A program made the translations under genes and the position numbers. This document shows, piece by piece, positions 38,985-49,374 of a DNA stretch of 64,000 nt. The stretch covers positions 1 through 64,000 of the forward strand of contig DVIW01000021.1 of assembly GCA_018710945.1 (NCBI GenBank). Direction: 5' to 3'. Below the pieces are notes generated by a model. It saw only the letters and a program-made list of their open reading frames with translations. It did not search any database and was not told where the DNA came from. This DNA comes from Candidatus Aphodovivens avistercoris (lineage in GTDB: Bacteria; Actinomycetota; Coriobacteriia; Coriobacteriales; Eggerthellaceae). Each line of letters begins with the position of its first letter. Within the stretch, counting starts at the first letter, position 1.

Positions 38985-39132
38985 CGGCCTCGACCAGAAC
39001 AGAAACATCCCGGGTAGAGCCAAAGTCAGCGAGGCCGCCTCTGGCGCCCGGAATTCGTGGGATCGCGGGGGCGAAGCGTACTCCGGTACGTGAGCCCCGG
39101 GATCGCGCGAAGGCCGGGTGTCAGAGGCGGCC
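38985..39132. repeat. Long structured inverted repeat between the HIT gene and ackA
   Basis: Arms at 39033-39051 (GGCCGCCTCTGGCGCCCGG) and 39114-39132 (CCGGGTGTCAGAGGCGGCC) pair along 19 positions; the only two non-Watson-Crick pairs are G:U if the plus strand is transcribed. Inside are further stems: 39054-39059 with 39106-39111, GATC with GATC (39061-39064/39101-39104), GGGGC with GCCCC (39068-39072/39094-39098), and CGTAC-TCCG-GTACG (39077-39090). The base of the left arm (39030-39037) can instead pair with CGGCCTCG at 38985-38992. On the minus strand that gives a terminator-like stem before TTTCCTTTCG. It could be a structured RNA or a small palindromic mobile element. Confidence 0.65.
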
Positions 39133-45474: not shown

Positions 45475-47058
45475 CTAGCGGGCCGCGTCGGCAAGCAGGC
45501 TGTCGGCCTCCATCTGCGCGGGGCGCGGCAGGCCGATGATGTCGAGCAGCGTGGGCGCCAGGTTGCACAGGGCCCCGCCGTCGCGTCCAAAGGACAGGTC
45601 GCGTCCCGAGTAATCCAGAAGCGCGCACGGCACCGGAGCGGTGGTGTGCGCGGTGTGCGGCGAGCCGTCGGCCGCCAGCATCTTGTCGGCGTTGCCGTGG
45701 TCGGCCGTCAGCAGCGCGGTGCCGCACGCGCGCTCAAGCGCCGCCAGCACCTTGCCCACGCCCTCGTCCACCGCTTCCACGGCCGCCACCGCCGCCGGGA
45801 TGACGCCGGTGTGCCCCACCATGTCGCAGTTGGCGAAGTTCACGATGTAGACGTCCGCCTCGCGCGCGTCGATGGCGCTCGCCAGCGCATCGGCCACTTC
45901 CGGCTCGCTCATCTGGGGCTGCAGATCGTAGGTGGCCACCTTCGGGCTGGCGATAAGCGTGCGGCGCTCCCCCGCCTTGGGCGCCTCCACCCCGCCGTTC
46001 AGAAAGAACGTCACGTGCGCGTACTTCTCGGTCTCGGCGATGTGGTACTGGCGCAGCCCCGCGTCGGCCAGCACGTCGGCCAGCACGTTTTCGGGGAACT
46101 CCTTGGGGAAGGCCACCGGCGCGTCGATGGCTGGATCGTACTCGGTCAGGCACACGAAGCGCACCTGCGGGACAAACCCGCGCTCGAAGCCCTCGAACGC
46201 CCCGTCGCAGAACGCGTGCGACAGCTCGCGCGCGCGGTCGGGACGGAAGTTGAAGAACACCACCGCGTCGCCGTCGGCCACGCCGCGCCCGTCGAGTGCG
46301 CACGGCACGAGGAACTCGTCGGTGACGCCTTCCGCATACGACGCGCGCACGCGCTCCGCCGCCGTGCCGGAAACCGTCTCCGCGGGATGCACGAGGACAT
46401 CCCATGCCTTCTGCACGCGATCCCAGCGCTTGTCGCGGTCCATCGCGTAGTAGCGCCCGGAAAGGCTCGCGATGCGGAAGCGCTCCGTCCCCGCCTGACG
46501 GTTGAGTCCGTCGAGCTTGGCCTGCAGCTCCTCCACGTAGCCCGCGCCGCTTGCAGGCGGCACGTCGCGCCCATCGAGGAAGCAGTGGACGCGCACGTCG
46601 GAGACGCCCAGCTCGGCCGCCATGTCCAGCAGCGCGTAGAGGTGCGCGTTGCTGGAATGGACGCCGCCGTCCGACAGAAGCCCCATGAAATGAAGCGCCC
46701 CGCCGCCGTCGCGCGCAGCGGAGAACGCCTCCGTGAGCACCGGGTTGCGGCGCAGCGAGCCGTCGGCGCACGCGCGGTTGATGCGCGAGAGCTCCTGGTG
46801 CACCACGCGCCCCGCGCCGATGTTGAGGTGCCCCACTTCGGAATTGCCCATCTGGCCCGCAGGAAGCCCCACGGCCTCGCCAGACGCCTCCAAGCGGATG
46901 AAAGGATGCGCCGAGAACGCCTCGTCAAGGTGCGGCGTGCGCGCCAGCGAGATGGCGTTGCCCGGCCCGGGCTCGGCCAGGCCAAACCCGTCCATGATGA
47001 TGAGGGCGGCGGGAAGGTGCAGCCCCGCCGATTCAGCCGACAAGCGCGCCTCGGTCAT
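45475..47058 (-). CDS. gpmI: 2,3-bisphosphoglycerate-independent phosphoglycerate mutase
   Basis: GpmI interconverts 3- and 2-phosphoglycerate and needs Mn2+. The alkaline-phosphatase-like fold is shown by ALIIMDGFG near residue 18, the phosphoserine loop GQMGNSEVGHLNIG (Ser73), HCFLDGRDVPP near 134, VFFNFRPDRARE, NFANCDMVGHTG, and the C-terminal TADHGNADKM. The length of 527 residues is normal. ATG at 47058 overlaps the tpiA stop by 4 bases (ATGA). Confidence 0.96.
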   Translation of the reverse strand: MTEARLSAESAGLHLPAALIIMDGFGLAEPGPGNAISLARTPHLDEAFSAHPFIRLEASGEAVGLPAGQMGNSEVGHLNIGAGRVVHQELSRINRACADGSLRRNPVLTEAFSAARDGGGALHFMGLLSDGGVHSSNAHLYALLDMAAELGVSDVRVHCFLDGRDVPPASGAGYVEELQAKLDGLNRQAGTERFRIASLSGRYYAMDRDKRWDRVQKAWDVLVHPAETVSGTAAERVRASYAEGVTDEFLVPCALDGRGVADGDAVVFFNFRPDRARELSHAFCDGAFEGFERGFVPQVRFVCLTEYDPAIDAPVAFPKEFPENVLADVLADAGLRQYHIAETEKYAHVTFFLNGGVEAPKAGERRTLIASPKVATYDLQPQMSEPEVADALASAIDAREADVYIVNFANCDMVGHTGVIPAAVAAVEAVDEGVGKVLAALERACGTALLTADHGNADKMLAADGSPHTAHTTAPVPCALLDYSGRDLSFGRDGGALCNLAPTLLDIIGLPRPAQMEADSLLADAAR

Positions 47059-47828
47059 CGCACGCACGCCTCCACCAGCTGGATGAACGACTCGGCCTTC
47101 AGGCTGGCGCCGCCCACCAGGCCGCCGTCGATGTCGGGCTGGGCCAGAAGCGCCTCCACGTTGCCGGGGTTCATCGAGCCGCCGTACAGGATGCGCATGC
47201 CCTCGGCCGCCTCGTCGCCGAACAGGCGGGCCAGCTCGGCGCGGATGGCGGCGCACACCTCTTCCGCCTGCTCGGGCGTGGCGGTGCGGCCGGTGCCGAT
47301 GGCCCAGATGGGCTCGTAGGCCACCACGGCGTGCGCCGCATCGGCCGCCTCGATGCCCGCGAACGCCGCGCGCACCTGGGCGCACACGTACTCGAGCGTC
47401 GTGCCCTCGTCGCGCACCGCAAGAGACTCGCCCACGCACACGATGGGAGCGATGCCGCCGGCGATGAGCGCGGCCACCTTGCGGTTCACGTCCTCGTTCG
47501 TCTCGCCAAACAGAGTGCGGCGCTCGGAGTGCCCCACGATGCAGTACTCGCAGCCGATCTCCTTGAGCATGGGCACTGAGATCTCGCCGGTGTAGGCGCC
47601 CGACGCCTCCCAGTAGACGTCTTGCGCGCCCACAGCCACCTCGGTCTTGTCGAACTCCAACACCGTGCGAGCGGGCTTCAAATCCACAAACGGCGGGCAA
47701 ATCACCACGTCGGCCTTGTCGGGCCACGCGCGCTTCAGCCGGTTCGCGATCTCCTGCGTGAGCACCACCGCCTCTGCGATGGTGTTGTTCATCTTCCAAT
47801 TCCCCGCCATCAAAGGCTTCCGAGCCAT
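47055..47828 (-). CDS. tpiA: Triosephosphate isomerase
   Basis: TpiA interconverts dihydroxyacetone phosphate and glyceraldehyde 3-phosphate. Signatures are MAGNWKMNN (catalytic Lys12), IVGHSERRTLFGE (His, about 100), AYEPIWAIGTG (catalytic Glu about 172) and LYGGSMNPGN near 215. The length of 257 residues is standard. AAGGAGGAG precedes the ATG. It is coupled to gpmI and separated from pgk by the palindromic element at 47902-48172. Confidence 0.97.
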   Translation of the reverse strand: MARKPLMAGNWKMNNTIAEAVVLTQEIANRLKRAWPDKADVVICPPFVDLKPARTVLEFDKTEVAVGAQDVYWEASGAYTGEISVPMLKEIGCEYCIVGHSERRTLFGETNEDVNRKVAALIAGGIAPIVCVGESLAVRDEGTTLEYVCAQVRAAFAGIEAADAAHAVVAYEPIWAIGTGRTATPEQAEEVCAAIRAELARLFGDEAAEGMRILYGGSMNPGNVEALLAQPDIDGGLVGGASLKAESFIQLVEACVR

Positions 47829-48189
47829 AAGCTCCTCCTTTTTCCCTTCTTCTTAGAATGCTTGCCGGGCGCACCGCATCGAGGGTTCACCAGAACGCAC
47901 CGCGCGGAGGGCGGGAGGGAGGGTCCGCGCACAGTTCCGCAGCGACTCGAAACGTCCCAACAACGGCACCGCGCCAAGCGGCCCGGGAGGGCGGGGTCCC
48001 GCGCGCAGTTCCGCACGAGCCGAAACGCCCTGTGGGCGTTTCGCGCGAGCCCAGGACTGTTTGAGCACGGGGCCCCGCCCTCCCGGGCCGCCCGCAAACG
48101 CTCCAAGCAGATCCCCAAGGGTCGTTTCGAGCGAACCCAGACCGCGAGCCCGACGCCTCCCGCCCTCCGCGCCCCTCAGCTAGAACCAG
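47829..48189. other. Spacer between pgk and tpiA
   Basis: This 361-bp region holds the nested palindrome at 47902-48172 and nothing that looks like a gene. No tRNA or known riboswitch shape was recognised. Confidence 0.6.
47902..48172. repeat. Nested palindrome made of four copies of a GC-rich unit
   Basis: Two direct units (47901-47954 and 47978-48027) each begin with a GGAGGGCGGG-type box and end in CGAAACG. Two inverted copies follow (48037-48091 and 48123-48172, beginning CGTTTCG). As a result 47902-47918 pairs perfectly with 48156-48172 (17 bp), 47978-48001 pairs with 48068-48091 (23 of 24), and the centre is a 10-bp hairpin CGAAACGCCC-TGT-GGGCGTTTCG (48021-48043). It lies inside the gap-pgk-tpiA-gpmI transcript and may act as an mRNA-stability or attenuation structure, or be a BIME-like repeat. 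Confidence 0.75.
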
Positions 48190-49374
48190 CTACCGAAGCG
48201 CCTCAACGCCCGGCAGCGCCTCTCCCTGCACCAGTTCCATCGACGCGCCGCCGCCCGTCGAGATGAACGTCATCTTGTCCGCCAGGCCGAACTTGTTCAC
48301 CGCCGCCACGCTGTCGCCGCCGCCGATGATGGTGTCGGCCGCCTCGTTGTCCGCCACGGCCTCGGCCACCGCCTTGGTGCCCGCCGCGAACGCGTCCATC
48401 TCGAACACGCCCATCGGGCCGTTCCAGAACACCGTGGCCGCCTTGCCTATGGCGTCGGCGTAGCGCGCCGCCGTGCCCGCGCCGATGTCCAGCCCCATCA
48501 TGTCCGCGGGAATGGCATCCACCGGCACCTCCTTGGTCGCCGCATCCTCGGCGAAGCGGTCGGCGCACACCACGTCGGTGGGCAGCAGCAGCTCGACGCC
48601 GCGCTCGCGCGCCTTCGCCAGCATCTCGCCGGCACGCTCGACCCACTCGTCCTCTTTCAGCGACGTGCCCACCGAAAGGCCCTGCGCCAGAAGGAAGGTG
48701 AAGCACATGCCGCCGCCGATGATCAGCGTGTCGCACTTGTCGATGAGTGCGTCGATGACCTTGATCTTGTCGGACACCTTCGAGCCGCCCAGGATGGCGA
48801 CGAAGGGGCGCTTCGGCTGCTCCAGCATCCCGGAAAGCGTGCCCACCTCGCGCTCCATCAGGTAGCCCGCATAGGCCGGAAGCAGCGCCGCCACGCCCGC
48901 GGTGGAGGCGTGCGCGCGGTGCGCGGTGCCGAACGCGTCGTTGACGTAGGCCTCGCCCAGCGCGGCCAGCTCTTCGCAGAAGCCCGGATCGTTCTTCTTC
49001 TCGCGCTTGTCGAAGCGCAGGTTCTCCAGCAGAAGCACGTCGCCGTCGCGCAGGGCGGCCGCCTTCGCCTGGGCGTCCTCGCCCACCGTGTCGGCGGCGA
49101 AGGCCACGGGCTTGCCCAGAAGCTCCGCCAGGCGCAGGGCGGCGGGACGCAGGGTGAACGCCTCCTCGAAGCCCGTGCCGGACGGACGGCCCAGATGGCT
49201 CATCAAAATGACGCGGGCGCCGTCGTCCGCCAGCTTCTGGATGGTGGGCAGCGCCGCGCGGATGCGCGTGTCGTCGGTCACGGCGCCATCCTTCACCGGA
49301 ACGTTGAAATCGACGCGCACCAGCACGCGCTTGCCGCGCGCGTCGAGCGCGTCGATGGTCTTGATATCGGACAT
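48190..49374 (-). CDS. pgk: Phosphoglycerate kinase
   Basis: Pgk makes ATP from 1,3-bisphosphoglycerate. The signature [14 protein letters not shown] lies near residue 17, SHLGRPSG near 58, NAIL-type linker region [17 protein letters not shown] near 192, and the nucleotide-site loop [12 protein letters not shown] near 360. The length of 394 residues is standard. ATG at 49374 follows GAAGGGAG; the frame stays open upstream into gap without a ribosome site. A terminator-like hairpin sits in the 56-base gap after gap. Confidence 0.97.

Follow-up and report, generated by a model that had tools for sequence, protein, structure and literature searches.

A nested palindrome between pgk and tpiA of Candidatus Aphodovivens avistercoris belongs to a dispersed folding repeat of Coriobacteriia

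The spacer between pgk and tpiA of Candidatus Aphodovivens avistercoris holds two copies of one palindromic repeat, one lying within the other, and this nested pair probably belongs to a dispersed, mobile palindromic element of Coriobacteriia. The closest and most likely reading is that of a REP-, MITE- or RPE-like mobile palindrome that is recognised by its core and its folded shape. The repeat is multicopy and spread across the class, keeps its structure while its sequence turns over, and lies preferentially 3' of genes in the sense orientation; some copies sit in frame within genes, and apical hairpins differ between orthologous copies. This dispersed folding repeat of gut Coriobacteriia appears to be previously undescribed and belongs with the small palindromic mobile repeats: twelve loci searched against Rfam 15 gave no relevant match, also at a lax threshold (a single tRNA alone exceeded its gathering score), the open-licence literature held neither a match to the repeat or its core sequence nor a description in Coriobacteriia, and the surveys of REPs consulted do not mention the clade.

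Two elements in one spacer

The window, that is, the whole analysed stretch of 64,000 nucleotides, carries gapA (upstream), pgk, tpiA, and gpmI (downstream) on the minus strand, all of them confirmed by Pfam, in agreement with the names that the original prediction had given to the last three. Three inverted repeats enclose a central hairpin (CGAAACGCCC-TGT-GGGCGTTTCG) in the pgk–tpiA spacer, namely 47902–47918/48156–48172 (17/17 complementary), 47946–47958/48119–48131 (12/13), and 47978–48007/48062–48091 (27/30; Table 1). The stems first described from the letters alone are hence present where they had been placed, including the perfect 17-bp arm and the central hairpin, and the 24-bp stem is contained within the last pair of arms. 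The longest perfect inverted arm of the spacer measures 19 nt as compared to a maximum of 12 in 60 approximately dinucleotide-preserving shuffles, and the minus strand folds at −212.7 kcal/mol versus −181.6 ± 5.3 for shuffled sequence (z = −5.8; 0 of 100 shuffles as low), which bears out the argument that random GC-rich sequence would not give such symmetry. Four repeat units had been counted here; the boxes themselves were found, but the unit count is better replaced by two complete elements, one within the other, each with one box of either kind, GGAGGGCGGG and CGAAACG, in every arm.

The covariance model R1 scores 114.4 bits at 47987–48082 on the minus strand for the inner element, which is itself one of the 13 sequences in the model-building set. 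Around it, the arms of 47902–47958 pair with 48119–48172; the former half reads CGCGCACAGTTCCGCAGCGACTCGAAACGTCCC at 47926–47958, while GGGTCGTTTCGAGCGAACCCAGA at 48119–48141 aligns with its intact counterpart in locus L002. Because these outer arms carry the boxes as well as both halves of an apical hairpin, they represent a second copy that is interrupted in its loop. The identical nested composite, linkers included, occurs at a second locus of the same genome (G000:C44:35576–35852), where the outer copy is intact; the first linker reads GGCACCGCGCCAAGCGGC in the window and GGCACCGTGCCAAGCGGC in L002. In a genome of the same genus, two copies (L243 and L244) harbour a different insert at their apex.

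Table 1. Features of the pgk–tpiA region (window positions)
Feature	Positions	Strand	Remarks
pgk	48193–49374	−	upstream in transcription direction; PF00162, E 2.1e−160
Spacer pgk–tpiA	47829–48189		both flanking genes on the minus strand
tpiA	47055–47828	−	downstream of the spacer; PF00121, E 2.4e−96
Inner complete palindromic element (nested copy)	47978–48091	−	covariance model R1 and outer arms 27/30
Core box 1, inner element	48050–48069	−	reads 5'-CGUGCUCAAACAGUCCUGGG-3'; GCUC..CAGUCCU nearly invariant in 105 copies
Core box 2, inner element	48000–48020	−	reads 5'-GCUCGUGCGGAACUGCGCGCG-3'; UGCGGAACU nearly invariant in 105 copies
Apical hairpin, inner element	48021–48043	−	10-bp hairpin with the loop ACA (minus-strand reading)
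Outer interrupted copy, one half	47902–47958	−	outer arm, core box 2, half of the apical hairpin
Outer copy, other half	48119–48172	−	decayed core box 1 that lacks its CAGUCC part
Linker between outer and inner copy	47959–47977	.	common to the second nested copy at G000:C44
Second linker	48092–48118	.	CGCTCCAAGCAGATCCCC, also in L002 (alignment)

A family with a constant core and free stems

A covariance model built from 13 own-genome copies finds the repeat at 20 loci of this genome (about 20 places in a sequence search that used the spacer as query), in 25 of 60 relatives, and in 96 of the 199 genomes of Coriobacteriia, where the copy number reaches about 48 per genome and carriers include Gordonibacter, Adlercreutzia, and Parvibacter. 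Further copies, for which the original prediction had suggested looking, thus lie at 19 more loci of the own genome and throughout a class-wide family. When a phylum sample of 246 genomes was searched with the model, all 14 positive genomes were Coriobacteriia and none outside the class carried the repeat. Isolated weak matches in the deeper-branching families may be due to chance. Elsewhere in the window, a 38-nt inverted repeat at 39033–39132 (82 % complementary, 24 nt between its arms) reaches a model score of just 15 bits (E 0.93) and is probably a member of another palindrome family.

Each unit spans about 115–150 bp and is built around a constant asymmetric core, GCUC-NNN-CAGUCCU / UGCGGAACU, which in the minus-strand reading of the window, with the own-genome copies side by side, appears as (C)GUGCUCAAACAGUCCU ... 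UGCGGAACUGCGCGCG; a variant core (CAGUCGCUC ... GAACUCGCUUGG) and a short form of 67 nt without apical hairpin (CGCUUCGCUGCGG) were also found. The apical hairpin is variable, exchangeable or absent among copies, and in the own genome it has the tip CC-ACU-GG with free stem letters. Likewise, the sequence of the outer stem differs in nearly every copy, its arms still being complementary over a total length with quartiles of 24, 27, and 30 bp. A likeness of CAGUCCU to the substrate strand of the hairpin ribozyme was dropped by reasoning, the partner strand and the second loop being missing. Inverted pairs of the element occur in the genomes G007, G018, and G022. In Adlercreutzia (G007/G076; L209, L211, L212, L215, and L388), such pairs are joined by a conserved linker, TGAGCGTAGAGGA, into recurrent composites of about 260 bp. 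The outer stems of copies in G007, G018, and G022 moreover show conserved A–C mismatches (e. g., GGGGCATACCTCC / GGAGGCACGCCCC), which correspond to G–U pairs if the opposite strand is read.

At the pgk–tpiA spacer itself, the element is found in three of 48 tpiA loci of Eggerthellaceae and relatives (duplicates merged): the window, Aphodovivens excrementavium (short form, sense), and Gordonibacter Marseille-P2775 (variant, antisense); in the remaining sampled loci it is absent at E ≤ 0.1. Since its presence at this position is not conserved, nothing indicates that the operon needs the element, although the operon regulation or nuclease barrier that the original prediction had proposed may exist. 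The same spacer holds a different palindrome in G002 of the same genus. It belongs to a second family of palindromes with variable stems and constant boxes of its own (GACGCTGCG ... CTCGCTGAC), whose sites comprise L165 (this G002 spacer), L034 upstream of tpiA, as well as L400 and L408 in G076, and which occupies spacers where relatives hold the first family, the pgk–tpiA spacer included.

Placement, in-frame copies, and turnover of letters

Placement was assessed for 98 intergenic copies with genes called by a simple codon-usage caller. The nearest upstream gene lies in sense for 75 of them, sense copies outnumber antisense ones 48 to 18 between codirectional neighbours (p = 1.4e−4), and convergent spacers are hit 23 times as compared to three divergent ones (p = 4e−5), copies outside these four orientation classes being those with one neighbour gene missing. 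The median distance is 41 nt downstream of the stop codon, and at least four T within 15 nt downstream were seen in just five of 102 copies.

About one tenth of the family resides within genes: 12 of roughly 110 copies are intragenic, all in frame without stops, on both strands and in several frames. According to names read from the sequence rather than from annotation, the hosts include an Lhr-like helicase, with a copy in this genome as well as in a second family of the order (L193, L285), the linker of an ABC-F protein with copies in five genera and none in most relatives, and a glutamate-synthase-like (GltA-like) protein. In the same genus (G001, G002), the homologues of the latter have neither element nor outer stem, and the ABC-F homologues have no element. 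The glutamate-synthase-like gene holds a second hairpin in L289 (G000:C45) and L291 (G001:C32), GTTCCG[C/T]CGGCT..AGCCG[G/A]CGGAAC, in which a compensatory change distinguishes these two species of the genus. In a further homologue (L297, G005), a linker encodes the repeated peptide CHPERSAQ...REVEGS, which resembles the in-frame translation of a different palindromic repeat.

The conservation of shape is best seen in an alignment of 105 copies, in which 94.8 % of pair cells hold standard pairs versus 69.3 % after shuffling, with 767 changes on both sides of a pair versus 189, and with a covariation score of 0.62 versus 0.16 (≤ 0.11 when slid); since the model structure was imposed on the alignment and the copies are related, the pair counts overstate independence. 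Both-sided changes affect 30 of 33 pairs, including 10 of 10 in the apical helix. Orthologous copies illustrate the same turnover at single sites, where a stem pair changed from A–T to G–C (L374/L380), from C–G to T–A (L385/L386), or from T–A to C–G (L222/L410), the latter two cases with replacement of the apical hairpin; in L389/L210, both stems differ between flanks that are 93–98 % identical. Selection on a sense RNA is expected to favour G–U over A–C. In the outer stem, A–C mismatches and G–U pairs are about equally common (84 vs 99), as compared to nine and 15 in the apical hairpin and to seven and 113 in the core, where one fixed U–G pair dominates. The pattern of the outer stem suits selection at the RNA level no better than upkeep at the DNA level, be it through recognition of folded DNA or through hairpin-templated repair.

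Origin of the repeat and its meaning

Several other explanations need to be weighed against a mobile palindrome. A functional structured RNA of 3' UTRs and operon spacers, acting as mRNA stabiliser, processing site, or protein-binding site via the core bulges, would account for the covariation, for the sense excess between codirectional genes and the closeness to stop codons, and for the strictly conserved unpaired letters and U–G pairs of the core, and the sense bias could indeed reflect selection for RNA function. However, this is rather unlikely in view of the copies within open reading frames on both strands, the 18 antisense copies between codirectional genes, an outer stem whose mismatches would suit a lack of sense-strand selection, and the poor conservation of presence at a given gene pair. 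Far less probable still are intrinsic transcription terminators turned repeat family: stable GC-rich hairpins just past stop codons and frequent convergent spacers are what they would leave, but the T tract is missing, which led us to reject a Rho-independent terminator, and in-frame intragenic copies, a constant core needless for termination, and a presence that varies between related species speak against them as well. The chance symmetry of a GC-rich sequence, for which the 74 % GC of the element might be invoked, has a practically negligible probability given the shuffles, the 20 own-genome loci, and the restriction of the family to one class.

We also regard a strict REP/BIME, mobilised by a RAYT (Y1 tyrosine transposase), as very doubtful. 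Intergenic palindromes, the inverted pairs with conserved linkers in Adlercreutzia, intragenic copies, and one Y1_Tnp gene in the own genome would suit it. Against it, no copies flank that gene, Y1_Tnp is missing from 10 of the 25 carrier genomes, including G007, G018, G022, and G023 with 21–48 copies each, and length and architecture are unlike those of published REPs (PMC3733652). The unflanked gene and the absence of Y1_Tnp from the richest carriers led us to reject a RAYT as the likely mobiliser. The gene concerned, L110 (G000:C27:3397–3723), is the only one of the own genome with a Y1 transposase domain and encodes about 264–308 aa. Of the BIME-like mobile repeat that the original prediction had offered as an alternative, the kind is thus retained, with further copies and a class-wide family, but not the RAYT association, which was not found.

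The mobile palindrome is most readily pictured as a non-autonomous element that would be moved in trans, its core being recognised in folded form as hairpin or cruciform. Matching of the arms would be maintained by hairpin-templated repair and/or selection, and the position after genes may simply mark sites that tolerate insertions. Within the pgk–tpiA spacer of the window, a copy may have ended up inside the apical loop of a second one; alternatively, an already nested composite may have arrived there, which is conceivable because the identical composite occurs at a second locus. Either way, transcription of the spacer element would yield a hairpin of very high stability, and a dedicated regulatory role would not be required. 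No mobilising enzyme and no parent insertion sequence were identified with Y1_Tnp as the sole family searched, and outer arms differ per copy. Two presence/absence pairs (L212/L399 and L214/L395) revealed neither a convincing target-site duplication nor a clean insertion, deletion being as likely. In L212/L399, the target-side CATCCGCG matches the outer arm, which suggested an inverted target duplication as source of the outer stem; yet a deletion remnant is as likely, because similar letters recur in the arms of further copies of the genome concerned. A pre-existing terminator hairpin as source of the outer stem is not supported at the one intragenic copy for which DNA of same-genus homologues was compared, as these lack the stem; for intergenic copies it may yet hold. 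More tentatively, and as a possibility that we would not favour, some Coriobacteriia enzyme might recognise the short asymmetric core only in the folded strand and leave the flanking stem (about 24–30 bp) and the apex as rewritable, swappable docking sites; if true, this would be a shape-recognised element that builds Russian-doll nests and donates peptides to host proteins.

In its behaviour, the repeat comes closest to Rickettsia palindromic elements (RPEs) and to REP/BIME. RPEs are palindromic repeats of about 100–150 bp that occur between genes and repeatedly in frame within unrelated genes (PMC10969869), and the present repeat resembles them in size and in its intergenic and in-frame copies, which lie in several unrelated genes and are absent from homologues; this likeness is one of behaviour, and the repeat differs in its clade, constant core, sequence-free outer stem, exchangeable apical hairpin, and use of several reading frames. 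REP/BIME/REPIN elements share the many-copy intergenic palindromes, the inverted pairs with linkers (here the composites in G007/G076), and the mostly 3', promoter-poor placement. Published REPs, however, measure 20–40 bp with GTAG or CGTC ends (PMC3733652), whereas the repeat is about four times longer, has no RAYT association, and among its listed copies shows no common GTAG/CGTC end. Like MITEs (ERIC, Correia/NEMIS, QMITE1), it is a short, non-coding, multicopy, and imperfectly self-complementary sequence of presumably non-autonomous character with intragenic copies; it differs by the lack of a fixed terminal inverted repeat, its outer stem being copy-specific. Integron attC sites are recognised through their fold, conserve few letters, and leave their stems free to vary, and the repeat would follow a similar logic; the core letters are unrelated and the parallel is an analogy only.

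The family offers more than 100 natural cases of joint rewriting of arms and apical hairpins, often at orthologous positions, and can therefore help to tell hairpin repair at the DNA level apart from selection at the RNA level. Like the RPEs of Rickettsia, but in an unrelated phylum, it supplies conserved proteins with short peptides, and its spread without a visible transposase calls for a concrete search for the enzyme. For pipelines that discover RNA motifs, it finally holds a caution, in that covariation as strong as that seen here need not signify a functional RNA.
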